Of a stretch of 64,000 bases of DNA, positions 33,196-49,145 are shown one piece after another (within the stretch, counting starts at the first letter, position 1; each line of letters opens with the position of its first letter). Location of the stretch: contig NZ_JBBKTT010000001.1 in NCBI RefSeq assembly GCF_037892425.1, positions 1,736,001 through 1,800,000 of the forward strand, written 5' to 3'. The position numbers and the translations under genes are program-made. The notes below the pieces were generated by a model that saw nothing but the letters and a program-made list of their open reading frames with translations, ran no database searches and was not told the origin of the DNA. This DNA is from Lacibacter sp. H375 (lineage in GTDB: Bacteria; Bacteroidota; Bacteroidia; Chitinophagales; Chitinophagaceae).

Positions 33196-33280
33196 ATATG
33201 TGTTTTTTGTTAACACAAAAATCGAAACAGCACAGAACTTGGTTCTTGGTGTTTGCCAAGATTTTCAGACGATCATGCGA

Positions 33281-33496
33281 TCAGGCTGCAAAAGATTGGT
33301 TGTTGCTGTTAAAAATCCTTGCTTTCAATTCTTCACTTGGCTGCAATTGAAACGCAGCTGCATCGCACAATGCCTGCCAGAATGAATAGGGCTGATGCAT
33401 ACAGCCACGGTACGTGTAGCAATTGCTGCAGGTGTTTGTGCTGCACTGATCTTCCGCAACGGCTTCCCCGTTTTTTAAAGGTTGTTTTTCGGCCAT
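33281..33496 (-). CDS. Small Cys-rich protein, unknown family
   Basis: 71 residues from the ATG at 33496. Five Cys in the pattern C-x4-C-x2-C-x5-C-x11-C (Cys18, 23, 26, 32, 44) with His34, inside DQCSTNTCSNCYTYRGCMHQ, then an amphipathic tail with SEELKARIF. No signal peptide. I do not recognise the family; the spacing could hold a metal ion or a small Fe-S cluster. It is supported as a real gene by the best LytTR-type promoter in the window (operator 33574..33605, TTTG at 33565, TATGTTTG at 33542) and a leader with AAACCTTAT. Confidence 0.6.
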   Translation of the reverse strand: MAEKQPLKNGEAVAEDQCSTNTCSNCYTYRGCMHQPYSFWQALCDAAAFQLQPSEELKARIFNSNNQSFAA

Positions 33497-33534
33497 GATA
33501 AATAAGGTTAGATGATAAGGTTTAAATAACAATA

Positions 33535-33605
33535 CAAACATAAGTTCACTCATCTCCAATACAAACAACTGCTAACATGAACTGGAAAAACAAGCGGATG
33601 AATTG
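33535..33605 (-). promoter_or_regulatory. LytTR-type operator and promoter A (Cys-rich gene)
   Basis: Minus strand: CAATTCATCC (33605..33596) and CAGTTCATGT (33584..33575), starts exactly 21 bp apart. TTTG (33565..33562) begins 19 bp and the perfect -7 TATGTTTG (33542..33535) 42 bp after the second repeat start. Confidence 0.8.
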
Positions 33606-33656
33606 GTTTATTCCGCACATGCATAAGAAAGCAGAAGCTGTCAGTTACCGCTTTAG

Positions 33657-33727
33657 CAGTTCATCAATCAAAAAATACAATTCATGCAAAGCCTTCTTTT
33701 GAATGCAGTTGCGCCCAAACATCTTTG
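33657..33727 (+). promoter_or_regulatory. LytTR-type operator and promoter B (cytochrome/OmpA operon)
   Basis: CAGTTCATCA (33657..33666) and CAATTCATGC (33678..33687), 21 bp apart. TTTTG at 33697 (+19) and CATCTTTG at 33720..33727 (+42). The cytochrome start codon follows 20 bases later. Confidence 0.8.
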
Positions 33728-33747
33728 CCATTCAAAACCTTATTATC

Positions 33748-34692
33748 ATGAAGCGATTCAAAAAAATTGCGAAGTGGACAGGCTTTATTCTGCTGTTCAT
33801 TATCGTTGCACTTACAGCCTTAACCGCTACCCGCCAGGATCTTCGTTTTGAAGCACCTTATCCTGCCATTAAAGCATCAACCGACAGTACAGTTATTGCA
33901 CAGGGAAAACATCTTGTTTACAGTATGGCGCATTGTGCCGATTGTCACAGTAATCAAAACACTGATTCGTTGGCTCAGCTTGGTATTGAACCTACATTAA
34001 GTGGGGGCCGCAAATTTGCGTTTGAACTCGGAAATTTTTACAGCAGAAATATTACTTCCGATGAAGAAACAGGTATTGGTAAATTAACTGATGGCGAGAT
34101 TGCCCGCACGTTATACTATGGCGTTAACTCTAAAGGGCAGGCAATGATCGACTTTATGCCTTTTCATAACGTTAGTGAAGAAGATATGACAGCCATCATT
34201 TCTTACCTGCGTACACTTAAACCGGTAAAAAATGTTGTACCTGAAAATGAATACAGCACGCTGGGAAAAGTGTTGAAAGCATTTTTAGTAAAACCTGTTG
34301 GACCCAAAGGCACAATTCCAAAAACAGTAACACCAGATACAACGGCTGCATATGGTGACTACATTGTAAATAATGTGGCCAACTGCTCCGGATGTCATAC
34401 ACTGCGTGGTCCAACAGGTGATTATATAGGTGAGCCTCTTGCCGGTGGTAATGCATTTGTTGAACCGGGGTTAGATACATTAACACCTCCTAATCTTACG
34501 CCACATCCTGAAAGCCGCATCTACGGTTGGAGTAAACAGAACTTCATTGAGCGTGTTCGTATGGGAAAACTTATTAAGCACAGTCATATGCCGTGGAACT
34601 CGTATAAGAAAATGACTGATGATGAATTGACTGCGATCTATAATTACCTGCAATCGGTAAAACCAGCTAAAACATCAGTTGAAGAAAAATAA
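33748..34692 (+). CDS. Di-haem cytochrome c, membrane-anchored (LytTR-controlled paralogue)
   Basis: 314 residues from the ATG at 33748; the in-frame ATG at 33703 lies between the -33 and -7 boxes and cannot be used. N-terminal anchor (10-26), haem sites CADCH and CSGCH spaced as in the paralogue at 1604..2575, and the same landmarks (YSRNITSDEETGIG, FMPFHNVSEEDM, PPNLTPHPESRIYGWS, HSHMPW). It probably carries electrons between a membrane donor and a periplasmic acceptor. First gene of an operon with the OmpA-family protein (11-base gap) and a membrane protein. Confidence 0.87.
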   Translation: MKRFKKIAKWTGFILLFIIVALTALTATRQDLRFEAPYPAIKASTDSTVIAQGKHLVYSMAHCADCHSNQNTDSLAQLGIEPTLSGGRKFAFELGNFYSRNITSDEETGIGKLTDGEIARTLYYGVNSKGQAMIDFMPFHNVSEEDMTAIISYLRTLKPVKNVVPENEYSTLGKVLKAFLVKPVGPKGTIPKTVTPDTTAAYGDYIVNNVANCSGCHTLRGPTGDYIGEPLAGGNAFVEPGLDTLTPPNLTPHPESRIYGWSKQNFIERVRMGKLIKHSHMPWNSYKKMTDDELTAIYNYLQSVKPAKTSVEEK

Positions 34693-34703
34693 AATAACTA
34701 ATC

Positions 34704-35978
34704 ATGAACAAACATCTTCTTATTGCAGCTTTGTTTTTATTGCCGTTGATGACGCAGGCACAGATCGGCAATGTATTGAACCGGGCAAAAGCAAAAGTAA
34801 ACCAGCGTGTCAATAACAAAATTGATAAAGGCATTGATGAAGCATTAGATGAAGTGGAAGGAAAAGGCAAACCAAAGCCTGCGGTCAACAACACAAATGA
34901 TGCAGCTGCTCCGTCAACCAAAAAGAATGTTGGGTATGCAAGCACATTCGATTTTATTCCGGGTGAAAAATTATTGTACACCGAAGATTTTTCGCAGGAT
35001 GCTATTGGTGAATTACCACTTAACTGGAATACAACCGGCAAAGGTGAAGTAGTAACAGTAGATGGGTTGAGCGGTAAGTGGACAAAGATGTATCAGAATT
35101 CTTTTTACCTCACCGGTAATAAAACAGAATTTCCAAAAAACTTCACAGTTGAATTTGATCTGTTGCTGGCATTTAACTACAAAAGTTATACGCTTCCATT
35201 AGTTACGTTTGGTTTATTGTCAAGTAGTGACTTGGCTACTACAGAGAATGAGCTAATGACCAATCACAGTAAATACCAATCAACAGAAGTAATGCTTCGC
35301 CCGGGTTATAAGAGTACACCCAGTTATGCCGGCGTAAAAAGTTTTATTGAGCGAAGAGATTTTTACAAAAGTGCCGACCAGGAGTTGAACAGCTTCGATG
35401 ATAATTATAATAAGGTAATACACATCGCCATGCAGATGCAGGAAAGCCGCTTACGCATCTGGATAAACAGTGAAAAAGTGTTTGATATACCAAAAGCATT
35501 AGCAACGCAATACATGTTTAATCAACTGTTCTTTAAGATCCATAACTCGGGATATAAAGAAAATGAAATTGGTTTTTATCTGGGCAACATCAAAGTGGCC
35601 ACAGGTATTCCTGATACAAGACATAAGTTGATGGAAGAGGGTAAATTTTCTACCACAGGTATTCTCTTCAATGTAAACGAAGCAACATTGCAACCTGCAT
35701 CTTATGGCGTGATCCGTGAAATTGCAGCAGTGTTAAAAGCAAACCCATCAGTTCGTATCAGCATTACAGGGCATACAGACAGCGATGGTGCTGATGCAGC
35801 CAATCTCACACTCTCACAAAAGCGGGCAGCAACAGTAAAAGATGTATTGGTAAATGAGTTTGCAATTGATGCAGCCAGGATGGAAACCGATGGCAAAGGA
35901 GAAAGTAAACCTGTTGCTGATAATAAAACCAAAGAGGGAAAAGCGGCTAACCGAAGAGTAGAATTTACAAAACTGTAA
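34704..35978 (+). CDS. OmpA-family protein with N-terminal lectin-like domain
   Basis: 424 residues. Signal peptide 1-20 (ends MTQAQI), a Lys/Asn-rich helical stretch, then a concanavalin-type beta-sandwich (about 90-300; GEKLLYTEDFSQDAIGELPL, YLTGNKTEFPKNFTVEFDLL, SRLRIWINSEKVFDIPK) and a C-terminal OmpA peptidoglycan-binding domain (about 315-424; VRISITGHTDSDGADAANLT, LSQKRAATVKDVLV, ANRRVEFTKL). It likely fastens a sugar- or surface-binding domain to peptidoglycan. Between the cytochrome and the membrane protein in one operon (11-base gaps). Confidence 0.85.
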   Translation: MNKHLLIAALFLLPLMTQAQIGNVLNRAKAKVNQRVNNKIDKGIDEALDEVEGKGKPKPAVNNTNDAAAPSTKKNVGYASTFDFIPGEKLLYTEDFSQDAIGELPLNWNTTGKGEVVTVDGLSGKWTKMYQNSFYLTGNKTEFPKNFTVEFDLLLAFNYKSYTLPLVTFGLLSSSDLATTENELMTNHSKYQSTEVMLRPGYKSTPSYAGVKSFIERRDFYKSADQELNSFDDNYNKVIHIAMQMQESRLRIWINSEKVFDIPKALATQYMFNQLFFKIHNSGYKENEIGFYLGNIKVATGIPDTRHKLMEEGKFSTTGILFNVNEATLQPASYGVIREIAAVLKANPSVRISITGHTDSDGADAANLTLSQKRAATVKDVLVNEFAIDAARMETDGKGESKPVADNKTKEGKAANRRVEFTKL

Positions 35979-35989
35979 AGCAATTAATT

Positions 35990-36454
35990 ATGGAACTGAA
36001 AATTTTAATCTTATTGAATCTTTTTATCTATAGCGTGATTGTAAGCCAATCATTCATGTATATGATTGCTATGCGTAATGTGCAGGAAAGTATGGGCGCA
36101 GCATCTTACATTGAATTACGAAAATTATTAGACAGGAATTTCCTGAAAAAATTTAAGCCCGTTGTTTATTCGGCACTGGTACTCGGTCTTGTGTTGGTAG
36201 TGGCGGCTGTTTTCCAGTCATCTATAATATTACTTGCCGGCAGCAGTATAGCTTTTGCAGGTTTGCTGACAGATGTTGTACTGATCTTAAAAGGTGATAT
36301 GCCCATTAACCGTATCATCAACAGCTGGACACTGGAAACATTTCCTGCTAATTGGGTTGAATACCGGAGTAAATGGCTCTACTGGTTTTCGTGGAGGCAG
36401 GTTGCAAACATCAGCGGATTTATTGCATTACTGATAGCGGCAGTTTTCGGTTAA
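35990..36454 (+). CDS. Small integral membrane protein, unknown function
   Basis: 154 residues with four predicted TM spans (about 4-24, 53-72, 76-98, 133-152). Features: YSVIVSQSFMYMIAMRNVQE near the start and a Trp-rich loop NWVEYRSKWLYWFSWRQ before the last span. It resembles small Bacteroidota membrane proteins of unassigned role; no motif. Third gene of operon B; its stop (TAA at 36452..36454) directly abuts the next LytTR-type operator (36456). Confidence 0.65.
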   Translation: MELKILILLNLFIYSVIVSQSFMYMIAMRNVQESMGAASYIELRKLLDRNFLKKFKPVVYSALVLGLVLVVAAVFQSSIILLAGSSIAFAGLLTDVVLILKGDMPINRIINSWTLETFPANWVEYRSKWLYWFSWRQVANISGFIALLIAAVFG

Positions 36455-36455
36455 A

Positions 36456-36526
36456 CAATTCATCCTTTATTTTTTGCAATTCAGTCATGCTCCACTTGAA
36501 ATGGCTTTTGTTGTGATCTACATTGC
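36456..36526 (+). promoter_or_regulatory. LytTR-type operator and promoter C (mono-haem cytochrome)
   Basis: CAATTCATCC (36456..36465) and CAATTCAGTC (36477..36486), 21 bp apart. TTG at 36496 (+19) and a weak -7 TACATTGC at 36519..36526 (+42). Confidence 0.65.
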
Positions 36527-36549
36527 AGTTGAATTAAACCTTATCAGAA

Positions 36550-37143
36550 ATGAAGAATACATTTATTCTTGTTACGATTGTAGCAGCTGGTATCGTAACA
36601 TTTGTTGCAGCTTGTACCGGCACATCAGCAAACAATGATGCAGTAAAAAAACCTCTCACGAATGCGGAGCTCATAAAACGAGGCGAATACCTCGTGAGTT
36701 CTGTTGGTTGTGATGATTGTCATTCGCCAAAAATTATGGGCCCCGGTGAACCACAAATTATTCCCGAGTTGCGATTCTCAGGTTATCCATCAACAAGACC
36801 TTTGCAAAAAGCAGATAGTAATGTAGTGAAAAGCGGGTGGGGTTTGTTTGGGAGTGATCTTACTGCATGGGTTGGCCCTTGGGGAATGTCGTTTGCAGCA
36901 AACATCAGCAGCGATGCGACCGGTATCGGCAACTGGACCGAAGCACAATTCTTTAAAGCAATACGTGAAGGAAAATATAAAGGGCTTGATAACAGCCGGC
37001 CGTTGCTGCCACCTATGCCTTGGTTTGTATATAAGAACTTCAGTGACGAAGACATCAAAGCAATTTTTGCTTTTCTGAAATCAACCAAGCCTGTTGAAAA
37101 TGTAGTACCGGCACCTGTGCCATTTACAGCTTTAAAAAATTAA
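36550..37143 (+). CDS. Mono-haem cytochrome c lipoprotein
   Basis: 197 residues. Lipoprotein signal FVAACTGTSAN (Cys22). One haem site CDDCH (about 56-60) in RGEYLVSSVGCDDCHSPKIMGPGEP, later GPWGMSFAANISSDATGIGN, PLLPPMPWFVYKNFSDEDIK with a possible Met ligand. It resembles cytochrome subunits of alcohol or aldose dehydrogenases but stands without an enzyme. LytTR-type promoter C lies upstream and a terminator-like hairpin (37183..37206) downstream. Confidence 0.83.
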   Translation: MKNTFILVTIVAAGIVTFVAACTGTSANNDAVKKPLTNAELIKRGEYLVSSVGCDDCHSPKIMGPGEPQIIPELRFSGYPSTRPLQKADSNVVKSGWGLFGSDLTAWVGPWGMSFAANISSDATGIGNWTEAQFFKAIREGKYKGLDNSRPLLPPMPWFVYKNFSDEDIKAIFAFLKSTKPVENVVPAPVPFTALKN

Positions 37144-37182
37144 TACGCATTAGGATTGTTTAGTGTTTAGGTATAATTACCT

Positions 37183-37206
37183 GCCCGACGGGCTCTCCCG
37201 TTGGGC
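37183..37206 (+). terminator. Hairpin after the mono-haem cytochrome gene
   Basis: GCCCGACGGG / CCCGTTGGGC, 10 bp with one G-T pair and a CTCT loop, 40 bases past the stop. Only a weak T-rich tail follows. Confidence 0.5.
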
Positions 37207-37364
37207 ATTACTATTTCAAAAAAAAATTGCCGATTACTTCTTTCAGCAACATCAAATTCTAACTTATGCCATCACCGGTTACATTTCAGAAATACAGATC
37301 ATGGAGAAGCCACCCGTTTATGTGGTTGTTTCGCTATGCACTGCTTTTATCTTTACCATCGTTT

Positions 37365-38783
37365 ATGAAAAAAATAATACCTGTTGTCTTCTTACTATTT
37401 TCATTTGGCACTGTGTATGCACAAGCACAGGGAGCGGACAGCTCGGCTTTATTCAATGCAGAACAATTACGTGCAGATCTTGATACACTTCACCACTGGG
37501 TACTTTCTTCTCACCCAAAACTCTACGGCAATGCCGACAGTGTGGAAACAGAAAAAAAATGGCAGCAGGTAAGGAGTGAATTAAACGGAAGTTTGTCCCG
37601 GCCGGCATTTATGAAAATACTTGCTCCTTTGCTGGCTCAGTATAACGATGGGCATACGTTTGTTGAAACTGATTTTGAAAGCCAGGAACTAAAAGCGTTT
37701 AAAGCCGGTGGTGGGCGTTTTCTTTCGTATGAAATCACCATACAGGAAAACGAAGTGTGGGTTAAACAAGATCATGATACATTAATGCAGGTAAAGCCGG
37801 GCAGTCGCATTTTATCCATCAACAATAAACCGATAAACGAAATTATAACAGAGTTGTACAACGCAATGTCTGGTGATCACAAAGCCAATCGGCTCGCAAC
37901 TGCTTCACGTTTGTTTGGATTTTTATTGTGGAATCAATACGGTTGGTCTGCACCATTCTCCCTGCAAGTGCAGGAACCTGGTGGAACGATACGGAATGTA
38001 AAATCGGTTGCAGTTTCGGTTGATGATTACCTGAAGAATTTATTTCCTTCTCCTTTATGGACGATGGATATTTATCCCGAGGAAAATTTAGCTGTAATTG
38101 AATGCAGAAGTTATTCGGGGAATATGGAGCGTATCCGAGAAAAACTCGATTCTTTTTTCACCATCATCAAACAAAGAAATATTCAGCATGTGGCGCTTGA
38201 TCTGCGGAGGAATGGAGGCGGCAACTCAATGATCGGCACGTTGTTTTTATCTTATCTCACGCAAAAGCCGTTGCTGTCGGTCAATTCAAAATCATTTCGT
38301 GAATCAAAACGCTTACATGCGTTGCCTGCAGATTTTTGGTTGAAGAAGCAATTTGATAATGCGTTAAAAACCTGGAAAAGAGACGGCGAATTTCTTACCA
38401 CTTATTTTGAATCAGACAATCCATTGCAACTAACAAAGCCGGAGTTGTTTTTTAAGGGCAATTTTTATTTGCTTACCAGTGCCCGCACTTATTCATCGGC
38501 ACACATGACGGCCATGCAGGTGAAGTGTTCGAAACTGGGAGTTATCATCGGTCAACCAACCGGAGAGCAAATTGATCTTACAGGTGAAATACTCAACAGT
38601 AAATTACCACACTCAAATATTTTCGTGTATATCCCCACAGCTATGTTTACTGCTTCCTGTAAATGGAAAGAGAAGATGGGAGTGCAGCCAGATCATATTA
38701 CTGCATTTGATCCAAATCATTTAGCGAATGCTGTTGATACTGAGTTGGCTTTCCTGAAACAACTTATCAATGCAAAGAAATGA
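37365..38783 (+). CDS. S41 family (tail-specific-protease-like) peptidase
   Basis: 472 residues from the ATG at 37365, which opens a clear signal peptide (MKKIIPVVFLLFSFGTVYAQ); the ORF extends 33 codons upstream without a signal. A helical N-terminal part (ADLDTLHHWVLSSHPKLYG, ILAPLLAQYNDGHTFVETD), a PDZ-like segment (QVKPGSRILSINNKPINEII) and the S41 catalytic part (LDLRRNGGGNSMIG, LTSARTYSSAHMTAMQV with the likely Ser nucleophile, GVIIGQPTGEQ). It acts in the periplasm. No clear LytTR-type operator; only degenerate TTCAG repeats lie upstream. Confidence 0.85.
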   Translation: MKKIIPVVFLLFSFGTVYAQAQGADSSALFNAEQLRADLDTLHHWVLSSHPKLYGNADSVETEKKWQQVRSELNGSLSRPAFMKILAPLLAQYNDGHTFVETDFESQELKAFKAGGGRFLSYEITIQENEVWVKQDHDTLMQVKPGSRILSINNKPINEIITELYNAMSGDHKANRLATASRLFGFLLWNQYGWSAPFSLQVQEPGGTIRNVKSVAVSVDDYLKNLFPSPLWTMDIYPEENLAVIECRSYSGNMERIREKLDSFFTIIKQRNIQHVALDLRRNGGGNSMIGTLFLSYLTQKPLLSVNSKSFRESKRLHALPADFWLKKQFDNALKTWKRDGEFLTTYFESDNPLQLTKPELFFKGNFYLLTSARTYSSAHMTAMQVKCSKLGVIIGQPTGEQIDLTGEILNSKLPHSNIFVYIPTAMFTASCKWKEKMGVQPDHITAFDPNHLANAVDTELAFLKQLINAKK

Positions 38784-38793
38784 TTTGGCTAGA

Positions 38794-38864
38794 CAGATCA
38801 TGCAATGAAATAACCAGTTCATGCATGTGTAATTAGTGGAAGCTGTTTGTGTGCGTTAAGTTTG
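38794..38864 (+). promoter_or_regulatory. LytTR-type operator and promoter D (glycosyltransferase)
   Basis: CAGATCATGC (38794..38803) and CAGTTCATGC (38815..38824), 21 bp apart. A perfect -7 TAAGTTTG at 38857..38864 (+42); the -33 is poor (TTAG). Confidence 0.75.
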
Positions 38865-38895
38865 TTCATTATAAACCTTATCAATTTATTCTACC

Positions 38896-40251
38896 ATGAA
38901 CAAACAACTTGCTGCAGGTAACGGAAAGAAAATTCTGTTTGCCTCAGTTCCTGCTGATGGACATTTCAATCCGCTTACAGGGTTGGCTAAACATCTCCAA
39001 TCACTCGGTTATGAAGTACGTTGGTACACATCAACTTACTATGCAGCGAAATTGGAGAAACTTGCAATTCCTCATTATCCGTTTGTAAAAGCGCTGGATA
39101 TTACGGCAACTGAGATCGACGAGATGTTTCCTGAGCGCACAAAGATCAAAAGCAAGGTCCAAAAACTCAATTACGATCTAAAGAACTATTTCATTCTCCG
39201 TGCGCCGGAGTATTACAATGATATCAAAGACATTTACAAGGAGTTTAAGTTTGATCTGTTTGTGGCAGATGTTCTGTTTACGGCCATCCCGTTTGTTGCT
39301 GACCTTATGGAGATACCTGTTTTTTCAATGGGCATTGTGCCATTGATGCAAACATCAAAAGATCTCCCACCTGCAGGTTTGGGATTAACACCTGGTACTA
39401 CATGGCTTAGTAAAGTGAGAGACAGTATGCTTCGCTTTATGGCTGAGAATATTTTATTCAGCAAGTCAGATAAGTTGATGAAAAAAATATTGGAAGGTTA
39501 TTATATTGATCATGATAATAAATTTCTTTTCGACCTTGGTATCAGCAAGGCAACTTATTACCTGCAAAGTGGTACACCCGGTTTTGAGTATAAGCGTAGC
39601 GACATGATGGAGAATGTTCGGTTTATCGGCTCAATGCTTCCTTACAGCAGTAATCAAAACAAAGAACAGTGGTTCGATGAACGATTGAATCAATACAAAC
39701 GAGTGGTGCTTGTAACACAAGGAACTGTAGAAAAAGATGTCAATAAACTACTGGTGCCAACTTTTGAGGCATTTAAACATTCAGATACGCTTGTTGTAGT
39801 TACAACCGGCGGTTCGCAAACAAGTGAGTTGCGTGCAAGCTATCCGCAGAACAATATCATAATAGAAGATTTTATTGCCTTTGATGATATTATGCCTTAT
39901 GCTGATGTATATGTAACCAATGGTGGTTATGGAGGCGTAATGCTTGCAATTGAAAACCGTGTGCCAATGGTAACAGCAGGTGTTCATGAAGGGAAGAATG
40001 AAATTTGTGCAAGGGTTGGATATTTCAAAATAGGTGTTGATCTGAAAACCGAATTACCCAAAGTTGAACAGATCAGGAAGGCGGTTGACGAAGTAACCGG
40101 AACCGATGAATACAAAATCAATATTCAAAACCTGGCGAATGAATTTCAGCAGTACGATGCTAACAGTCTGTTTGCAAACCTTGTTGCTGAAGTATTGCAA
40201 CCGGCAAATGATCTTATCATTTCAAACAGATACAGCGAAAAAATATTCTAG
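38896..40251 (+). CDS. GT1-family (MGT-type) glycosyltransferase
   Basis: 451 residues, cytoplasmic GT-B fold. N-terminal acceptor half: ILFASVPADGHFNPLTGLAK and DLFVADVLFTAIPFVADL. C-terminal UDP-sugar half: VVLVTQGTVEKD, IIEDFIAFDDIMPYADVYVT, NGGYGGVMLAIENRVPMV. Relatives glycosylate macrolides, flavonoids, sterols or carotenoids; the acceptor here is unknown. It stands alone under LytTR-type promoter D, followed by a hairpin (40263..40294). Confidence 0.88.
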   Translation: MNKQLAAGNGKKILFASVPADGHFNPLTGLAKHLQSLGYEVRWYTSTYYAAKLEKLAIPHYPFVKALDITATEIDEMFPERTKIKSKVQKLNYDLKNYFILRAPEYYNDIKDIYKEFKFDLFVADVLFTAIPFVADLMEIPVFSMGIVPLMQTSKDLPPAGLGLTPGTTWLSKVRDSMLRFMAENILFSKSDKLMKKILEGYYIDHDNKFLFDLGISKATYYLQSGTPGFEYKRSDMMENVRFIGSMLPYSSNQNKEQWFDERLNQYKRVVLVTQGTVEKDVNKLLVPTFEAFKHSDTLVVVTTGGSQTSELRASYPQNNIIIEDFIAFDDIMPYADVYVTNGGYGGVMLAIENRVPMVTAGVHEGKNEICARVGYFKIGVDLKTELPKVEQIRKAVDEVTGTDEYKINIQNLANEFQQYDANSLFANLVAEVLQPANDLIISNRYSEKIF

Positions 40252-40262
40252 GGTTGACGGGT

Positions 40263-40294
40263 CTGGCCGGATGGTTTTTTAACCCTCCCGCCAG
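40263..40294. terminator. Hairpin after the glycosyltransferase gene
   Basis: CTGGC-c-GGATGGTT / AACCCTCC-c-GCCAG with a TTTT loop, two mismatches. It sits 11 bases after the stop and ends 5 bases before operator E. No T-run follows. Confidence 0.45.
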
Positions 40295-40299
40295 GCCTA

Positions 40300-40332
40300 C
40301 AATTCATCCCCGTTTTTACTCAATTCATACAG
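40300..40332 (+). promoter_or_regulatory. LytTR-type operator E (kinase-kinase-regulator operon)
   Basis: CAATTCATCC (40300..40309) and CAATTCATAC (40321..40330), 21 bp apart. No TAnnTTTG is present at +42; the only near match is TAATTTG at 40383. The site still implies autoregulation. Confidence 0.65.
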
Positions 40333-40399
40333 GATGATCCGTTTTTCCTTTCCGTCATATCAACAAAACCAGCAAAAGATGGTAATTTGTAAAATAGAT

Positions 40400-41461
40400 A
40401 TGCAGATCAAATTACCATCTTATACCACAAGGGATTATGCGGTTCTTGCGATCATTCTGTTACCCATCAGCATCATCATAAATTCAATTTTGCTGGGGGC
40501 TGGCTATTATTCAAGCCTGGGCGTTTTTTTGCTGGCTACGGTTTTAGGTTGCATAGGTTTCGCTATCAATTTCATTTTTTGTGGCGGATGGGCGGTTCTC
40601 ATGAAAAAACGTTTTCCAGATGAAAACCAGGTAAGTACCCGGCTTACATTTATGATTCTTACGTTTATCGTAATTACCGGTTTGTTTTTATACCTCATGT
40701 TCCGGGGTTACGAGCAAATAGCGTTTTTCAATTACAGGTTTAATGAAAATATGTTTCTGTTGGCCTATATCGGCATGAGCATCGTTAATGTATTTATTAC
40801 GTTAATGATGGAAGGTGTGGACCGTTATGAAAAATGGAAGGACAGTTTAAAAGAAACAGAAGAGTTACAAAAAGTATTCAGGCAAAGTCAGCTGCAGGGT
40901 TTAAAAAGTCAACTGAATCCGCATTTTCTTTTTAATAGCTTAAACTCTTTGTCAAGTCTTATTAGTGAAGATGAAGATCAGGCTGAACGTTTTTTGAATG
41001 AGATGAGTAAAGTATACCGTTACATGCTGCGGAACGATGAAGACCAGATGGTGTCCTTAGAAACGGAATTGCAGTTTGTAGAATCTTATCTCTATTTGTT
41101 GAAAGCAAGATATGGTGATGGGTTGCAGCTGTCGGTAAACGTATCTGAGGCTGCAGCGCAAACGATGTTGCCGCCTTTATCGTTACAGGTACTGATCGAA
41201 AATGCGTTTACGCAGAACAGCTTGAGTAAATCAAGCCCGTTGAAAATTCAGATCGATTCAGAAGACGATAAATGGATTGTTGTACGTAACAATCTGCAAC
41301 CAAAAGTGGTTGCAGAAACCGTTGATGTGGAAGCGGGACTCGATAACCTCATCAATCGCTACCAGTTGATCAATCGCTCAGAAGTAATCATTACCGATCA
41401 GCCAGGTGAACGCATCATCCGTTTACCATTGATCTGCAAAACAGCGGAGGTAATGCTATGA
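40400..41461 (+). CDS. LytS/YehU-type sensor histidine kinase 1
   Basis: 353 residues from the ATG at 40400; the ORF opens at 40334 but that start touches operator E, so 40379 or 40400 is used. Four TM spans (about 13-33, 38-65, 80-100, 115-137) and a coiled linker lead to the His_kinase domain LKSQLNPHFLFNSLNSLSSLI with phospho-acceptor His175. The ATPase N-box reads VLIENAFTQN, where relatives have ENAxKH, so activity may be altered. No extracytoplasmic sensor domain; the signal is probably sensed in the membrane. Overlaps kinase 2 by 4 bases (ATGA). Confidence 0.88.
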   Translation: MQIKLPSYTTRDYAVLAIILLPISIIINSILLGAGYYSSLGVFLLATVLGCIGFAINFIFCGGWAVLMKKRFPDENQVSTRLTFMILTFIVITGLFLYLMFRGYEQIAFFNYRFNENMFLLAYIGMSIVNVFITLMMEGVDRYEKWKDSLKETEELQKVFRQSQLQGLKSQLNPHFLFNSLNSLSSLISEDEDQAERFLNEMSKVYRYMLRNDEDQMVSLETELQFVESYLYLLKARYGDGLQLSVNVSEAAAQTMLPPLSLQVLIENAFTQNSLSKSSPLKIQIDSEDDKWIVVRNNLQPKVVAETVDVEAGLDNLINRYQLINRSEVIITDQPGERIIRLPLICKTAEVML

Positions 41462-42549
41462 GTGTGTGGAATAAACCAACGAAGCTTCAGCTGTATTCTT
41501 TTGTAGCATCAATGCCAATCATTGACATAATGCTCAACTTTATTTTGTACGATGAAAAGTTTTTTCATGATATCAATATCTGGCTTGTTTCGTTTCCATT
41601 GATCTTTATAATCGGAATAGGTTCATGGCGGGGGCACGTATTTATTGGCAACTACATCAAACATAGGTTTCATGGATTAAAGCAAACAAAGAAGAGAATA
41701 TTATTGCAGGCATTCTGTCTTATTCCTTTCATGTCGTTCTCTGTTACATTGATCTTCCTGCTGTATGATGCATTGCATATTCTTGGGTACAATTTTTCAT
41801 GGGAAGATTTTAAACAGGGCCTTATCGTGGGCTTTTGTGTAAACCTCATCTTTGAAACACTGTATGAAGCGGATTATGTGCTGGAGCGTTATAAAGAAAG
41901 TGTGGAAGAGAAACAACACATGCAACAGCTTTCTATGTTTCATGAGTTTGATAGTTTAAAGAACCAGGTAAATCCACATTTCCTGTTTAATTGCTTCAAC
42001 ACCCTTTCATCACTTATCAGTGAAGACAAAAAGAAAGCAGAAAAGTTCTTGAATGAGTTGAGTAAAGTATATCGATACTTGTTACGTAATAACGAAGATG
42101 GATTGAGCACAGTGGATAATGAAATACGGTTTATCCGTTCGTATTATCAATTATTACAAACAAGGCATGGCGAAGCGGTGCAGTTGAATATTGAAATTGA
42201 CAAGCGTTACGATTCATACATGTTGCCATCACTTACGTTACAGTTGTTGGTAGAGAATGTTGTGAAGCATAATGTGCTTTCAAAGAATAAACCATTGGTG
42301 ATCGATATTTTTACTACTGCAGGGAATAAACTGGTGGTGAATAACAACCTGCAACGTCGTACTGTGAAAGCGCCGAGTAATAAGGTGGGGTTAGAGAACA
42401 TTCGTGCAAAGTATGATCTGTTGAAGCAACCGGGTTTCCAGGTAATGGAAGATGAAAAGAATTATACAGTGGTGCTTCCGCTTATCTGGAATAATAATGG
42501 AGAGATGAAACGAGCAATATTAACTGAGGCGAAGAACAGCTTACTGTAA
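41458..42549 (+). CDS. LytS/YehU-type sensor histidine kinase 2
   Basis: 363 residues with the same plan as kinase 1: four TM spans (about 12-30, 38-58, 80-100, 118-140), linker, His_kinase motif LKNQVNPHFLFNCFNTLSSLI with His174, N-box LLVENVVKHN (canonical) and G-box NKVGLENIRAKYDLL. Probably a tandem duplicate of kinase 1; the pair may work as a heterodimer. Translation is coupled to kinase 1 by the overlap. The regulator gene follows after 70 bases. Confidence 0.9.
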   Translation: MSVWNKPTKLQLYSFVASMPIIDIMLNFILYDEKFFHDINIWLVSFPLIFIIGIGSWRGHVFIGNYIKHRFHGLKQTKKRILLQAFCLIPFMSFSVTLIFLLYDALHILGYNFSWEDFKQGLIVGFCVNLIFETLYEADYVLERYKESVEEKQHMQQLSMFHEFDSLKNQVNPHFLFNCFNTLSSLISEDKKKAEKFLNELSKVYRYLLRNNEDGLSTVDNEIRFIRSYYQLLQTRHGEAVQLNIEIDKRYDSYMLPSLTLQLLVENVVKHNVLSKNKPLVIDIFTTAGNKLVVNNNLQRRTVKAPSNKVGLENIRAKYDLLKQPGFQVMEDEKNYTVVLPLIWNNNGEMKRAILTEAKNSLL

Positions 42550-42619
42550 TGAGAATAAAAATTTTAAAAGATATAACCCCGAGTTATCGGGAAGGCAATA
42601 ATCAACAAAAAACAGGCAA

Positions 42620-43399
42620 ATGAGAATACTTATTGTAGAAGATGAAGAACTTGCAGTGAAGAAACTGCAAAAAACATTGGCAGCTGTTGATGCAACAGCA
42701 TCGGTGATTGGTGTAACAGATAGTATCAAAGCAACCGTCGATTGGTTACAAAGCAATCAACAACCCGATCTTATCCTGATGGATATTGAGCTTGCCGATG
42801 GGCAGAGCTTTGAAGTATTTAATTTAGCAGAAGTGAAGAGCCCGGTAATCTTTACTACTTCGTATGACGAATATGCATTGAAAGCTTTTAAAGTGAACAG
42901 TGTTGACTATTTGCTGAAACCTATTCAAAAGGAGGAGCTGCAGGCAGCTTTGCAGAAATACCGTCACCTGCATGCAACAGCAAAAGCACCCGATGGAAAA
43001 TCGGATATGAATCTTGAAAGTCTTGTACGTGAATTGCAACAGAAACTGCAACCTAAGGAATTCAGAAAGCGTTTCCTGGTGAAGCATGCGCAGAAACTGG
43101 TATCGGTTGAAATTGACGAGATCGCTTATTTCTACAGCGATGGACGACTCAACTTTTTCAAAACAAGCGATAACAAAAAATATGTAGTTGATTATACAAT
43201 GGATGAGCTGGAGGATATGCTTGATCCTGAAAAGTATTTCCGCATCAGCCGTTCGTTTTATGTTTCAGTAAGCAGTATCGATAAAATCGACGATTACTTT
43301 GGTAACCGTCTGATACTCCAATTAAAGCCAGCGGTTGATAAAGAAGCATTGGTAAGCAGAGAGAAGGTAACCGAGTTTAAAAAGTGGATGGGTAAATAA
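42620..43399 (+). CDS. LytTR-family response regulator
   Basis: 259 residues. Receiver domain 1-120 (acidic pocket VEDEE, phospho-acceptor Asp55 in LILMDIELADG, Thr in FTTSYDEYALKAF, Lys in LLKPIQKEEL), a linker, then the LytTR DNA-binding domain at about 150-257 (FLVKHAQKLVSVEIDEIAYF, FRISRSFYVSVSSIDKI, VSREKVTEFKKWMG). LytTR domains bind two 9-bp direct repeats about 12 bp apart; such repeats lie before nine local transcription units, including this operon. Confidence 0.95.
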   Translation: MRILIVEDEELAVKKLQKTLAAVDATASVIGVTDSIKATVDWLQSNQQPDLILMDIELADGQSFEVFNLAEVKSPVIFTTSYDEYALKAFKVNSVDYLLKPIQKEELQAALQKYRHLHATAKAPDGKSDMNLESLVRELQQKLQPKEFRKRFLVKHAQKLVSVEIDEIAYFYSDGRLNFFKTSDNKKYVVDYTMDELEDMLDPEKYFRISRSFYVSVSSIDKIDDYFGNRLILQLKPAVDKEALVSREKVTEFKKWMGK

Positions 43400-43420
43400 T
43401 ATTCAACCATTTAAAAAATA

Positions 43421-43450
43421 AAAAAAGAACAGCAATTGCTGTTCTTTTTT
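43421..43450. terminator. Bidirectional terminator after the response regulator
   Basis: Perfect 30-bp palindrome, AAAAAAGAACAGCAA and its complement, with A- and T-runs at either end; 21 bases after the regulator stop and 22 after the convergent DUF2807 stop. Confidence 0.88.
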
Positions 43451-43472
43451 TTATGTTGATAACGGTGTTTCT

Positions 43473-43985
43473 TTATTGTCCTAAACCACTCCTGTATTCT
43501 CTAGGTAGTTTTTTCAGGAAGTTATAACCTATCTCAGCACTGCTTCTGATCTCAATAGTACCTGTTGATTTCAGATTTACCATGCATTCGTCGTACAGGG
43601 TGATCACAAGATCTTTCGATTGTAAGGTGTTCATGCCTGTAACAAAAGATTTTGCATAAATATCAACTGCAGCAAGATTTTTAACCGGTAGACCGATGTA
43701 AATTTTATTCTTATAACTTCTGTCTTTGCTTGCTTCAATAGTCAATACGCCGTTTTCCTGTTTTACAGAAATTTCATTGAAGTATTGTTTATCGCCTTCA
43801 ATGTAAAGAATGCCGGGTTCGTTGTCTTCGATCAACAACACATCAATTGAAGCATTGATCACCAGTTTGTGAAAAGGTTGAACAGTTACTTTACTAATGG
43901 CTGATTTCTTTTTTTCTGTTGTTTGTGCTGAGGCTGCAGTAGTAACCAGCAAAAGAACTACAGTGAGCAGGTGTTTTACATTCAT
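43473..43985 (-). CDS. DUF2807 (GIN-domain-like) secreted protein
   Basis: 170 residues. Signal peptide 1-20 (ends ASAQT), then a parallel-beta-helix-like GIN domain: VQPFHKLVINASIDVLLIED, GILYIEGDKQYFNEISVKQE, LAAVDIYAKSFVTGMNTL, IEIRSSAEIG. About half the normal length, so only one turn set is present. DUF2807 proteins are periplasmic or surface structural proteins; function unknown. Its promoter is LytTR-type site F, in the canonical geometry. It is divergent from nothing and ends against the regulator terminator. Confidence 0.8.
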   Translation of the reverse strand: MNVKHLLTVVLLLVTTAASAQTTEKKKSAISKVTVQPFHKLVINASIDVLLIEDNEPGILYIEGDKQYFNEISVKQENGVLTIEASKDRSYKNKIYIGLPVKNLAAVDIYAKSFVTGMNTLQSKDLVITLYDECMVNLKSTGTIEIRSSAEIGYNFLKKLPREYRSGLGQ

Positions 43986-44021
43986 GATGAAAAGGTTTAA
44001 TGATGATAAAGTTTAACCATG

Positions 44022-44092
44022 CAAAGATGCTCAGCTATGAACATAGCGGAAAAACACATCTGTATGAAACGTTACAGCTGCTGTATGAAATG
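44022..44092 (-). promoter_or_regulatory. LytTR-type operator and promoter F (DUF2807 gene)
   Basis: Minus strand: CATTTCATAC (44092..44083) and CGTTTCATAC (44071..44062), 21 bp apart, both followed by AG. The -7 CATCTTTG (44029..44022) is at +42, identical to those of promoters B and H. Confidence 0.78.
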
Positions 44093-44107
44093 AATATGTA
44101 ATGAAGG

Positions 44108-47100
44108 TTATGCTACCGGAACCAGCAACACAAAAATGGAGCTGCTTTTGTGTACCTGCACATCAAGCTGTGCTTTTATGGTTTTGAGCCTGTTTTCCAT
44201 ATCCTGCCGCTGCAGCAGATTGTTGAGCTGTTGCATATCGCAACAATCATTTTTAAACTGCATGGTAAACTGCAGTCGTGGTTTTTCGTAACTGATATGG
44301 ATATTGCATTTTTGAGCACCTGCATAGATCAGGCTTTTAACTGCTTCTTTAAACAAAAGAAATGATTCGTGGCGAAGCTTCATGTTGAGCGAAAGAGCTT
44401 CTACATTCTTATCAACAAGAATGTCGATCTCGGCGCCATTACGATTGTTGAGTGCATCAAGGTATTCCTTCATGCGTTCAACCGTTTTGGTCATATTATC
44501 ATTATCAGGATCAATGCTCCATAACATATCGTCCATAGCAATCATCATATTATGGCTTTTAGTATGGATCTGCTCAATATATTCTTTCGATTTCTCTGGA
44601 TCCTTATCTGCTTTCAGTTTTGCCATTTCACTCAGGATATTAATATTGCTGAGAGCAGTATTCACTTCTTTATGCAGATTGTCGGCAATGCCTGAACGCA
44701 TTTCCTGCATTGCTTCTTTACGTTTCATACGTTCACGGTCGAGCCAAAAAATGATTGCCCCTCCTGCCAATATCAATAAACTGTAGAACCACCATGATTT
44801 CCAGAAAGGTGGATTCATTTTTATAACAAGTTTTGTATCCTGCTCTGTAAAGCGTCCTTCTTCGTCCATTACCCGAAGCCTGAATGTATGCGTGCCGATT
44901 GGTAAAAATGAATAAACAGCCTGGTTGTTATTGTCGGCCGATTGCCAGTCTTTGTCAATCTTATCCATTTTGTATTGAATAACACTCGATGTATTGTATT
45001 GCAGATTCGAAAATTCAATGATTACCGAGTTGTTGCCGGGGGACAGATTTATGAGTTCGAGCTTTAATAATGAATCAACCGGAATTGATTTGTTTCTTAC
45101 TTTAAAATCTGTAATCGTTACTTTGGGTTTTGCATTATTTAAAACAATTGAAACCGGATCAAATACAACAAAATGATTACTGCTTCCAAAAATTAAACGA
45201 CCGTCACGAAATCGCCTCGAAGAGGAGAGTGCAAAATCTTCGTTGTCAATTCCGTCTGTCTTACCAAAACGAATAAAGAGATTTTTTTGAATACTGATGC
45301 GGTATAAACCACTTGTACTGCTAAGCCATATGTATCCATTACGGTCTTTCTCAAGTGATGCGATGTAGCCGGAAATAGTTTCAGCATTCCCAAGTAGTCT
45401 TGTTTTGTTGCTTATCCGGTTAAATAGTAAAATTTGAGAACCTGTTGTAATGATCATGGTGCTGTCGTTATACTCAAGTAATGCCGAAACGCCTTCTTGT
45501 GGTAATTTATATGCACCTGATTTGGTATTACTGAAATGGTAGATCACTTTATCTGTTGATGGGTCAATGGCATAAATTCCATCTGTTGCAAAGGCAATCC
45601 ATACTAAGCCTTTAGAATCAACTATAATCTTATTTACCTGGTTGGTGGGTAACGAAGAGACATGTTTGATGCCTTCAGCATAATCTTTTTTACCTGTGGA
45701 TGCATTCCATTTAAATAATCCGATTGATTGCATACCAAACCAAAGGTTGCCCAACTTATCTTCTGCAATTTGTCTTACAGTTCTGTTTTGTAATACAGGC
45801 GGGTTGTAATATGCGGAAGTGCGGGTTTGTTGATTTATTTTCACAAAACCCGGTTGTGCAGAGAGCCAGATAGTATTACTGTCTTGTGAAGCATACATGC
45901 TCCAGATTGAATATGTGAGCCTTTCGTCAAGTCCTTTGATGTTTATTGGGATAGGCTTTAAGTTTTTATCATAATGATAAAGCCCATCACCCCATGCCGA
46001 TACCAGTATTGTGCCGTCTTTCATCTCGATGGAAGAGAGTACACCTCCCCGTCCTTGCAGTCCGGTTACACGGTTGATATGAGTTACATTCTGAAAAACA
46101 TGCTCTGCCGGATTAAAACGATATAAGCCATTATTATTTGTAGCAACCCAGAGGTTGTTTTCACGATCTTCTGTTAATCCACGTACATGCTCATACGCTA
46201 TACTTCGTTCTGACGTATAGCCATTGTTTACAAAATCAAATGTTTTGGTTGTTTCATTGAAGCGTGCAAATATCTGAAGTCCCCTTATCCAAATGCTGCC
46301 ATCTTTCTGTTCAAGAAATCCATGCACTTCATAATAAGATTTGATATAGCTATGCAACTCTGCCTTTGGAAAATAGAGATCATTCTTCTTCAGGTCATAA
46401 CAATAGATATATGGAAACCCGTTTCCCCAACTTAAGAACCAAACCCTGTTCTTTGAATCGAAGAAATAGCCGTAAGGGCCGATTACACCTTTATATTGAT
46501 CGATTATTTTTTCTTTTTCAATATTATTATAAGCAGTGCTTAAGTTCTTTGTTGCGTTATTATAAATGGCAATAGTTCCGTCTTTAGTAGTGAACCAGTA
46601 TTTGCCGGCATTTGGCTGCTCAGCAAAATCTCCAATATGCCAGCCATCCGGAATTTTGAATCTTTTATGTGCTGAAACAAATGCGTGTTTATTTGCATCG
46701 TACACCAATAACTCATGGCCGCCTAATATCATGAATACATCGCCTTTACTGTCGAGTACTACTTTTTTGATCGATGTTTTTAATGCGTCTTTATCCAGCA
46801 TATGCAAGGGTGTTTCGCTGAATCTGAAATTTTTTGTATTAAAAATTCCGATACGGCCATCTGACATAAGGATCCAGAGATTCTTACTGCTATCGATCAG
46901 TAGTTGCGAAATAGGATTGGAGGAAATAGTTGTACTGTCATTTTTACGATGACGAAAGGTTTTGTAACGGATTCCATCGAATCGTTGCAGCCCGTCAACT
47001 GAGCCGGTCCAGATATATCCCTGCTCATCCTGTACTACTGTATTTACCTGGTTAGATAAAAGACCAGAGCTTGTATTGTAATGTGTAAATGTATAGTTGA

Positions 47101-47170
47101 GGGTTTCTTGTGCAGCAGCGCTGTTCAGGAAACAGAAAAATATACAAATGAAGGATAGTTTGTGGGGCAT
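44108..47170 (-). CDS. Two-component-regulator propeller sensor with degenerate kinase domain
   Basis: 1020 residues from the ATG at 47170 (47188 falls in the -7 box). Signal peptide, then about 14 propeller repeats (GYIWTGSVDGLQRFDG, NLWVATNNNGLYRF, GLVWIAFATDGIYAID), a Y_Y_Y domain (about 690-760), one TM (WWFYSLLILAGGAIIFWL) and a HisKA_3-like helix IADNLHKEVNTALSNI that keeps His. The ATPase part lacks the Asn of the N-box (KEAVKSL) and has no DxGxG box, so it is probably an inactive kinase or a non-catalytic sensor. No regulator gene is attached. Controlled by site G. Confidence 0.85.
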   Translation of the reverse strand: MPHKLSFICIFFCFLNSAAAQETLNYTFTHYNTSSGLLSNQVNTVVQDEQGYIWTGSVDGLQRFDGIRYKTFRHRKNDSTTISSNPISQLLIDSSKNLWILMSDGRIGIFNTKNFRFSETPLHMLDKDALKTSIKKVVLDSKGDVFMILGGHELLVYDANKHAFVSAHKRFKIPDGWHIGDFAEQPNAGKYWFTTKDGTIAIYNNATKNLSTAYNNIEKEKIIDQYKGVIGPYGYFFDSKNRVWFLSWGNGFPYIYCYDLKKNDLYFPKAELHSYIKSYYEVHGFLEQKDGSIWIRGLQIFARFNETTKTFDFVNNGYTSERSIAYEHVRGLTEDRENNLWVATNNNGLYRFNPAEHVFQNVTHINRVTGLQGRGGVLSSIEMKDGTILVSAWGDGLYHYDKNLKPIPINIKGLDERLTYSIWSMYASQDSNTIWLSAQPGFVKINQQTRTSAYYNPPVLQNRTVRQIAEDKLGNLWFGMQSIGLFKWNASTGKKDYAEGIKHVSSLPTNQVNKIIVDSKGLVWIAFATDGIYAIDPSTDKVIYHFSNTKSGAYKLPQEGVSALLEYNDSTMIITTGSQILLFNRISNKTRLLGNAETISGYIASLEKDRNGYIWLSSTSGLYRISIQKNLFIRFGKTDGIDNEDFALSSSRRFRDGRLIFGSSNHFVVFDPVSIVLNNAKPKVTITDFKVRNKSIPVDSLLKLELINLSPGNNSVIIEFSNLQYNTSSVIQYKMDKIDKDWQSADNNNQAVYSFLPIGTHTFRLRVMDEEGRFTEQDTKLVIKMNPPFWKSWWFYSLLILAGGAIIFWLDRERMKRKEAMQEMRSGIADNLHKEVNTALSNINILSEMAKLKADKDPEKSKEYIEQIHTKSHNMMIAMDDMLWSIDPDNDNMTKTVERMKEYLDALNNRNGAEIDILVDKNVEALSLNMKLRHESFLLFKEAVKSLIYAGAQKCNIHISYEKPRLQFTMQFKNDCCDMQQLNNLLQRQDMENRLKTIKAQLDVQVHKSSSIFVLLVPVA

Positions 47171-47185
47171 AGTGTTCAGGTACTT

Positions 47186-47234
47186 CAAATTTAACGATTG
47201 CCTGCATAAACTGGGGAAATGACTGTATGAACTG
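47186..47234 (-). promoter_or_regulatory. LytTR-type operator and promoter G (propeller sensor)
   Basis: Minus strand: CAGTTCATAC (47234..47225) and CAGTTTATGC (47213..47204), 21 bp apart. The perfect -7 TAAATTTG (47193..47186) starts only 20 bp after the second repeat start, so the second repeat overlaps the -33 region. This differs from the other sites and would suit repression or another mode. Confidence 0.68.
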
Positions 47235-47320
47235 TTGATATCGTTATTGAATTGTGCGATTGTACGGATGAGTTGTAAACGCCAAATGGATGATTAGTTG
47301 TTGCTGTAGACATGCAACTA

Positions 47321-47391
47321 CAATTCACTGCTTTAATACTACAATTCATGCACAACAGTATTTCTTTCTGCTGCTGTCCATAACATCTTTG
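47321..47391 (+). promoter_or_regulatory. LytTR-type operator and promoter H (His-rich lipoprotein)
   Basis: CAATTCACTG (47321..47330) and CAATTCATGC (47342..47351), 21 bp apart. TTTC at 47361 (+19) and CATCTTTG at 47384..47391 (+42). Confidence 0.78.
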
Positions 47392-47430
47392 TGTCGTTAA
47401 TCATTCAATCATTAAACCTCAAACAAAACA

Positions 47431-48198
47431 ATGAAACGGTTTTTTATTTTAACTCTGTTGGCAGGCACCATCTTAACTTCCTGTAAGAAAGAAGACAAAC
47501 AAAAAGTATTTAACGGTCCGGTAGTTCCATTTCAACACGGAAAAGCCTGGACATGGTACGAAGTAGATGAAAGTGATAAACCACTTCGTTTAGCTGTTGC
47601 TATTGATGAAGCTGCAATGAGCAGCCTCGATCGTGGTGGCGATAATACCGGTGGGCACAATCACAGCAACAATGTTACATTGCAGTTGCACCCCAAAGCG
47701 AAATCAGTATTCAATCATGTTGGTCTTGGTTGGAATCCACATGGTCATGAACCGGAATTCATTTACGGATTGCCACACTTCGATTTTCATTTCTACACTA
47801 TTTCACCAGAAGCAGTGGATGCAATTCCTCCTTACGAAGTTGACAGCAGCAAACACAAGAACACGCCTGCACCTGAGTATTTCCCTGCTACTTATTTTAA
47901 CCCGGGTGGTGGTGTTCCAAAGATGGGTGTTCATTGGCTCGACTTTACTTCTCCTGAATTAAGTGGTGCGCCATTTACACAAACATTTATCTATGGTTCT
48001 TATGATGGTAAAGTGACATTTTACGAACCAATGATCACTGAGGCATTTATTTTAGCCAACTCTGGATTCGTGCGTGACATTCCACAGCCCGCAAAGGTTC
48101 AGGTAACCGGTTACTATCCAACGAAGATGCGCATTCAAAAAATCGCTGGTATCACCAATATTATACTGGAAGGATTTGTATTAAGACAGGCATCGTAA
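47431..48198 (+). CDS. His-rich lipoprotein (DUF5602/TTHB210-like)
   Basis: 255 residues with lipobox ILTSCKKE (Cys18). The body has many His: GGHNHSNNVTLQLH, WNPHGHEPEFIYGLPHFDFH, KMGVHWLDFTSPEL. The GLPHFDFHFY and GVHWLD motifs match proteins annotated DUF5602 or TTHB210-like; binding of a metal by the His clusters is plausible but unproven. Monocistronic: own LytTR-type promoter H and a strong terminator (48247..48280). Confidence 0.75.
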   Translation: MKRFFILTLLAGTILTSCKKEDKQKVFNGPVVPFQHGKAWTWYEVDESDKPLRLAVAIDEAAMSSLDRGGDNTGGHNHSNNVTLQLHPKAKSVFNHVGLGWNPHGHEPEFIYGLPHFDFHFYTISPEAVDAIPPYEVDSSKHKNTPAPEYFPATYFNPGGGVPKMGVHWLDFTSPELSGAPFTQTFIYGSYDGKVTFYEPMITEAFILANSGFVRDIPQPAKVQVTGYYPTKMRIQKIAGITNIILEGFVLRQAS

Positions 48199-48246
48199 AA
48201 GCGGTTTCACTCCGTAAAGTGACCACTGCTAACACAAGCAAGAAAG

Positions 48247-48280
48247 ATAAGCCGGAAGTGCCGTAACACTTCCGGCTTAT
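48247..48280 (+). terminator. Terminator after the His-rich lipoprotein gene
   Basis: Perfect 14-bp stem ATAAGCCGGAAGTG / CACTTCCGGCTTAT with a 6-base loop, then GTATTTTATT. Confidence 0.8.
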
Positions 48281-48330
48281 GTATTTTATTGCAAGGAATA
48301 GTGACCTGTACATTTCTTTTATAGCATCAA

Positions 48331-48401
48331 CATTTCATGCAGTAAAAAAAACAACTCATCACATTATGAGTTTTCAATGGGGCAATTGTGCATCAACTTT
48401 A
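48331..48401 (+). promoter_or_regulatory. LytTR-type operator and promoter I (hemerythrin-like gene)
   Basis: CATTTCATGC (48331..48340) and CAACTCATCA (48352..48361), 21 bp apart. TTTTC at 48371 (+19) and -7 CAACTTTA at 48394..48401 (+42). Confidence 0.7.
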
Positions 48402-48436
48402 CATCATTATCATTATTTCACCATTAAACCTTATTT

Positions 48437-49117: not shown

Positions 49118-49145
49118 TCATTTCTAAACAATAATAACCATCACA

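Follow-up and report, generated by a model that had tools for sequence, protein, structure and literature searches.

Does the LytTR response regulator encoded in a 15-kb stretch of the Lacibacter sp. H375 genome control the genes around it, and through which DNA element would it do so? The stretch lies in a window of 64,000 nucleotides (contig NZ_JBBKTT010000001.1, positions 1,736,001 to 1,800,000 of the forward strand), to which plain coordinates below refer, and it carries pairs of the direct repeat CARTTCATnC between its genes. The original prediction had listed nine such pairs, and all nine were found at their positions with a 21-bp period, in intergenic DNA and each pointing at a gene. 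Comparative data also supported its proposal that the pairs are operators of the LytTR regulator at 42620..43399: sites and regulator co-occur, sites are retained where the regulator is retained, and close matches are not evenly spread. Judged from sequence, these pairs are very probably operators of that regulator.

Predicted operators, genes and match quality

Grouped by gene order, the genes downstream of the nine operators form nine units and number about 16. As predicted, one site (operator 5, 40300..40330) lies ahead of the regulator's own operon. The regulator matched the receiver domain (PF00072, E 5.2e-16) and the LytTR domain (PF04397, E 3.7e-20), and two PF06580 proteins, LytS-type kinases, adjoin it upstream. 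In the list below, operators are numbered from base 1 to 31, mismatches are relative to CARTTCATnC-N11-CARTTCATnC, and box offsets are counted from the operator's first base, with equally good boxes resolved toward +64 for each operator.

33575..33605, minus: operator 1, 1 mismatch, box TATGTTTG at +64
32782..33496, minus: unit after operator 1, a small Cys-containing open reading frame (ATG 33496, no family match), then a DUF4345 protein
33657..33687, plus: operator 2, 1 mismatch, box CATCTTTG at +64
33703..36454, plus: unit after operator 2, a cytochrome c protein (likely ATG 33748) and the next two entries
34704..35978, plus: OmpA-family protein
35990..36454, plus: likely membrane protein, judged by eye
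36456..36486, plus: operator 3, 1 mismatch, weak box TACATTGC at +64 (2 mismatches)
36550..38783, plus: unit after operator 3, cytochrome c (36550..37143) and S41 peptidase (37266..38783)
38794..38824, plus: operator 4, 1 mismatch, box TAAGTTTG at +64
38896..40251, plus: glycosyltransferase after operator 4 (UDPGT; the MGT model under its cut-off)
40300..40330, plus: operator 5, exact match, ahead of the regulator operon, TAATTTGT at +84 (TAnnTTGY type)
40334..41461, plus: LytS1, His_kinase PF06580, likely start 40400
41458..42549, plus: LytS2, His_kinase PF06580
42620..43399, plus: LytTR response regulator, receiver and LytTR domain
44062..44092, minus: operator 6, 3 mismatches, box CATCTTTG at +64
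43473..43985, minus: DUF2807 protein after operator 6
47204..47234, minus: operator 7, 1 mismatch, promoter-proximal pair of a four-half-site array
47245..47275, minus: second pair, in tandem with operator 7, 3 mismatches, 8.9 bits in the profile
47275 and 47234 pairs, minus: the four-half-site array, half-sites at 0, 21, 41 and 62
47193..47186, minus: TAAATTTG box of the propeller-sensor gene, at +83 from the outer pair (47245..47275)
44108..47170, minus: propeller sensor (Reg_prop repeats, Y_Y_Y, sub-cut-off HisKA_3 match)
47321..47351, plus: operator 8, 2 mismatches, box CATCTTTG at +64
47431..48198, plus: lipoprotein-like protein after operator 8, judged by eye (sub-cut-off TTHB210-like match)
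48331..48361, plus: operator 9, 3 mismatches, weak box CAACTTTA at +64 (2 mismatches)
48437..49985, plus: unit after operator 9, a hemerythrin-domain protein (48437..49117), then the next entry
49146..49985, plus: protein without Pfam match, exported as judged by eye

The motif had been given for all nine pairs alike, but it is exact only at operator 5; the other eight carry one mismatch (five pairs), two (47321) or three (44062 and 48331). Allowing up to three mismatches, we counted 12 matches in the window; in 100 dinucleotide shuffles the count averaged 0.48 and did not exceed 4. The matches beyond the nine are a weaker pair at 47275..47245 (minus), in tandem with the 47234 pair, and sites at 19099 (minus) and 22764 (plus), which scored low in an operator profile, with no match above 9.1 bits at either. 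This profile spans 75 positions and was built from 63 training sites of targets (8 from the window), with 40300 outside the training set. On the window it returned nine matches at 22.0-34.8 bits, the next best reaching 10.1.

Close matches were not evenly scattered in a scan of the whole genome (5.08 Mb, three contigs). At up to one mismatch, six of the seven matches fall inside this 15-kb stretch; at up to two, 7 of 14 do so; and at up to three there were 83 matches compared to 4 for the pattern read backwards. The repeat unit had been described as the 9-mer known from LytTR sites. The two-repeat layout of LytTR type held, although the unit is better read as 10 nt long, CARTTCATnC: among 137 sites, the C at position 10 is present in 91% for one half-site and 78% for the other. 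Two 10-mers with 11 nt between them fall within the definition of a LytTR operator given in PMC4847170, namely a repeat of 9-11 nt present twice with a gap of 11-13 nt. The half-site period is 21 bp, but 20 bp in some loci, such as several Niastella.

Retention of the sites with the regulator

We searched 99 genomes (own, genus, family and order) with the pattern at up to one mismatch and with the LytTR protein, defining an orthologue by at least 70% identity. The orthologue was present in 16 genomes, all of which had at least one site; two or more sites occurred in 13 of these 16 and in none of the 83 genomes without it. In 14 of these 16 genomes the regulator and a site are no more than about 15 kb apart, and at up to two mismatches all 16 (now with G021 and G041) had a site that shares the regulator's contig and lies close to it. 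Members of the genus lacking the orthologue (G002, G005-G008 and G010-G012) had 0 or 1 match. Best profile E-values, which are rough given 150 scored candidates per genome and the partial presence of G000 and G001 in the training set, were 4.4e-6 to 1.9e-9 in all six regulator-bearing genomes tested and 1.3e-3 to 1.5e-2 in all five genus members without the regulator.

A second comparison used named relatives, the best 80 of 382 loci, all at least 71% identical to the regulator and totalling 1.45 Mb. Many are named Chitinophagaceae, Ferruginibacter, Niastella, Terrimonas, Flavisolibacter, Flavihumibacter, Chitinophaga or Lacibacter, some only Bacteroidota, and three Emticicia or Arenibacter. 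Same-strand half-site pairs (up to one mismatch each) numbered 145 at 21 bp, 25 at 20 bp and 14 at 41 bp, all remaining distances between 10 and 60 bp having 0-4 each. For the 75 loci with at least 2.5 kb upstream, we scanned 2.7 kb before the LytTR gene; a pair at 20 or 21 bp with up to two mismatches preceded LytS or LytTR in 70 of them (56 at 21 bp, 14 at 20 bp) versus 1 of 1600 shuffles. Some loci, e.g. L178, L184, L193, L194 and L198, have 20-bp pairs before both genes. The repeats are thus retained in relatives that keep the regulator; of the outcomes named beforehand as refuting, neither their loss nor an even genome-wide spread was observed. Regulator orthologues (74-76% identity) also occur in the Emticicia (L200, L209) and Arenibacter (L222) records, which are named outside Chitinophagaceae; in each of them a pair again precedes the regulator genes, and transfer or misassignment of the records would account for these cases.

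These data bear on whether the pairs could be a promoter-associated repeat, or chance similarity, with no dedicated regulator. Such an origin would fit the 83 genome matches at three mismatches and the location of six of nine inspected matches outside the cluster within long open frames. On the other hand, the nine window matches stand clear of the profile background and the period spectrum peaks at 21 bp. Because the sites co-occur with the regulator, we consider an origin without a dedicated regulator extremely unlikely.

A different regulator, e.g. another LytTR protein, could instead read the operators, with the one at 42620..43399 merely nearby. The genome carries 12 complete LytTR genes, and the 11 others might also read the site, which counts against our assignment. 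However, G002, G010, G011 and G012, members of the genus in which the orthologue is absent and other LytTR-type relatives reach 40-50% identity, had 1, 1, 0 and 0 sites at up to one mismatch, and the pair precedes LytS or LytTR in the 70 loci noted above. A reader other than the regulator at 42620..43399 therefore appears very improbable.

The nine units here agree with a local regulon, as first described, but sites attributable to the same regulator also occur at distal genes and at displaced homologues in G017. A TPR-like gene, with weak TPR matches below the Pfam cut-off, has a site in G000, G003 and G004. In the divergent hemH/hemA-hemC region, compared across the 24 of 30 genomes that yielded a hemH match, a pair with up to three mismatches was present in 8 of 14 regulator-bearing genomes (five toward hemH, three toward hemA) and in 0 of 10 genomes without the regulator, where the best candidates had 5-7 mismatches. 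The hemH site of the own genome had a profile E-value of only 0.012, a weak single score, so that this site rests on conservation. In G017, which belongs to another genus, five local gene types have homologues at distances of 0.15-1.5 Mb from the regulator: cytochrome c (56% identity), OmpA-type (51%), hemerythrin (51%), propeller-sensor (43%) and 47431-type (57%). Sites with 2, 2 and 3 mismatches precede the cytochrome c, OmpA-type and hemerythrin homologues, and the divergent sensor/47431 region has two sites (1 and 3 mismatches), both toward the 47431-type gene. A further site, with two mismatches, belongs to a 49146-type homologue (42%) that G020 carries on another contig.

Distal candidates came from 20 stretches picked by eye among the non-local matches listed, favouring likeness to known sites, and are a biased sample. 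Several of them (e.g. L237, L238, L239, L241 and L242) were rejected as lying inside long frames or without a plausible gene. Flanks are also conserved around two weak candidates kept as possible, one ahead of a cNMP-binding-domain gene (3-4 mismatches, in five regulator-bearing members of the genus) and one ahead of a Cupin gene (4 mismatches, in three).

Promoter register and direction of control

The operators keep a fixed distance to predicted promoter elements. Among 77 target rows, T occupied +41 in 79% and +42 in 77%, and TAnnTTTG stood at +64 with up to one mismatch in 35; 2000 trials with random offsets averaged 0.95 such rows and never exceeded 6. Of the eight non-LytS operators in the window, seven show this box at +64, differing from it by 0-2 mismatches. 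In Flavobacterium psychrophilum, TAnnTTTG serves as the sigma-A -7 box and occupies -12 to -5 (PMC9723704). With T at +41/+42 and TAnnTTTG at +64, the operator lies just upstream of the predicted -35/-33 element; the effector start would fall near +76 and the operator near -75..-45 from it.

Signalling genes follow another geometry. TAnnTTGY starting at +80..+90 was found in 21 of 47 LytS rows (the window's counted) versus 0 of 77 target rows; a TAnnTTGY-type box occupied +64 in 7 of the 77. The same source describes this sequence as motif SM5 of F. psychrophilum, most likely under an alternative sigma factor. Counted from the first base of the pair that was scored, a box (up to one mismatch) lies at 82-84 in ten of 16 propeller-sensor rows; 7 of these 16, and 12 of 51 LytS rows, carry a third half-site at 42-43. 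For the regulator operon and the propeller-sensor gene, the box is about 19-21 bp further from the operator start than the +64 of effectors, and the predicted start of the LytS operon would fall near +96.

Because of the register between operator and promoter, activation is indicated, and the regulator most likely acts as an activator. Alternatively, it might repress, or activate effectors while repressing or tuning its own operon and the propeller-sensor gene. The array at 47204..47275 lends itself to this idea, since its proximal pair spans about -53 to -23 from the start implied by TAAATTTG, and LytS operons differ in register and box type. Effector operators nevertheless keep a constant spacing upstream of the -33 region, like that described for LytTR autoactivation in Streptococcus mutans (PMC6193735), and we deem repression or mixed control unlikely.

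Under activation by the regulator at 42620..43399, the LytS pair of its own operon would, from family membership, phosphorylate it. It would then occupy two neighbouring CARTTCATnC half-sites, both on the same side of the helix, and from there, some 9-10 bp upstream of the -33 element, would assist RNA polymerase. The effector set, with operators at about -75..-45, would comprise cytochromes c, OmpA-like, S41 peptidase, glycosyltransferase, hemerythrin-domain and lipoprotein-like proteins. Sites at the regulator operon and the propeller-sensor gene would provide feedback on signalling genes with a different geometry, partly with a third or fourth half-site between, and a few distal genes (TPR-like, hemH/hemA region) would join the regulon in part of the genomes. 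The regulon may serve cytochrome, heme and envelope physiology. Tentatively, and as a possibility rather than an expectation, a two-layer promoter code could extend across much of Chitinophagaceae: effectors with two half-sites and TAnnTTTG at +64, and signalling genes with a box at +82 to +85, partly extra half-sites, and TAnnTTGY for the LytS operon. Cytochrome c, heme synthesis and envelope genes would in that case answer to a sensor pair in which one LytS is active and the other degenerate.

Several observations weigh against assigning the sites to this regulator and register. Exactly one match at up to one mismatch occurred in 12 of the 83 genomes without the orthologue. No pair at up to two mismatches was found in 5 of the 75 upstream regions (4-6 mismatches in L144, L189 and L195; 3 in L215 and L220), and the heme-region site is missing in 6 of 14 regulator-bearing genomes (4-7 mismatches). 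The +64 box has two or more mismatches in 42 of 77 target rows; in the window it has two at operators 3 and 9, and the box of operator 7 is not at +64. Moreover, genomes and loci are related, so the counts overstate the number of independent events.

Sensors, targets and known systems

Genes near the orthologue were called with our own gene caller in 55 of 81 loci (window included) that passed filters, of which 32 had two LytS genes and 23 had one. In the two-LytS loci, LytS2 conserves the EN.VKHN and GL.NI ATP-binding motifs; LytS1 conserves the histidine box and does not keep the two patterns in full. LytS1 may therefore be a weak or inactive kinase partner. A solved-structure sequence search with the regulator listed 43 matches, each aligning in or beginning in the receiver domain. 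For the propeller sensor (44108-47170, minus), no further response-regulator gene appeared among the scanned neighbours; its gene is nonetheless a conserved target with a multi-half-site array.

Targets were counted as genes, called with the same simple caller, that start within 250 bp of an intergenic site with up to three mismatches. The resulting 184 genes, the window's included, cluster into LytS (51), LytTR (20), propeller sensor (16), 49146 type (14), OmpA type (13), cytochrome c (13), 47431 type (9), hemerythrin (9), glycosyltransferase (8) and DUF2807 (3), with three further pairs and 22 singletons. All ten named families have members in the window.

Among the closest parallels is YpdA/YpdB of Escherichia coli, likewise a LytS-type kinase with a LytTR response regulator. 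According to PMC4847170, YpdB binds a direct repeat of GGCATTTCAT, whose part CATTTCAT is one base off the CARTTCAT found here, and has one target gene, in contrast to nine units in 15 kb plus distal ones. The present system also differs in having two kinases in the operon and Bacteroidota promoters. LytTR regulatory systems (LRS) of S. mutans (HdrRM, BrsRM) show autoregulation and use 9-bp direct repeats with a 12-bp gap, sometimes 11 or 13, which tend to sit 10 bp upstream of the -35 element (PMC6193735). An LRS combines a LytTR regulator with a membrane inhibitor and no kinase; because the regulator here has a receiver domain and adjoining His_kinase genes, it falls outside this class. In Pseudomonas aeruginosa AlgZ/AlgR, LytTR sites are two imperfect direct repeats about 12 bp apart, and the targets include hemN and cytochrome oxidase genes, which AlgR represses (PMC4064291). 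Compared on these genes, the likeness to AlgR is one of theme only (heme/cytochrome).

In the literature searched, which included few subscription papers, no title named a LytTR regulon of Chitinophagaceae, and nothing joined LytTR with Chitinophaga or with a Flavobacterium regulon. LytTR control is already known as a kind, and the regulon here is a well supported new example of it. Its operator, regulator and targets can be defined precisely enough for testing, and the fixed promoter register may offer a predictive rule for LytTR regulons in a phylum whose promoters form a type of their own.

A leader motif near TTAAACCTTA occurs shortly before many target start codons, at 33516-33525 (minus), 36534-36543 (plus), 38871-38880 (plus), 43991-44016 (minus), 47412-47421 (plus) and 48424-48433 (plus). 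The window has 3 exact and 10 one-mismatch matches (shuffle mean 7.1, with 3 of 100 shuffles as high), and a longer form matched the genome 17 times versus 7 for the pattern read backwards. It was enriched before targets, LytS and LytTR rows not being counted as such, in the 80 loci (19 of 105 versus 51 of 1199 other genes) and in the window (5 of 8 versus 4 of 52). We rejected it as part of the operator, as it is enriched before targets yet also occurs elsewhere.

Other LytTR loci of the genome were scanned as well (L031-L043, of which L035 is this regulator). L032 has an 8/9 pair, and no repeat pair was found in the remaining ten loci, an absence that means little because the scan reached only 1.5 kb each side. 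L043 (G000:C1:2032485-2032724) is a LytTR-domain match with two in-frame stops and likely a remnant. L041 has a perfect 9-mer pair at 21 bp: at about 2740-2772 of this locus (G000:C1 near 2040870), downstream of another LytTR gene, the perfect direct repeat CTACACTTC with a 21-bp period is perhaps another operator type.

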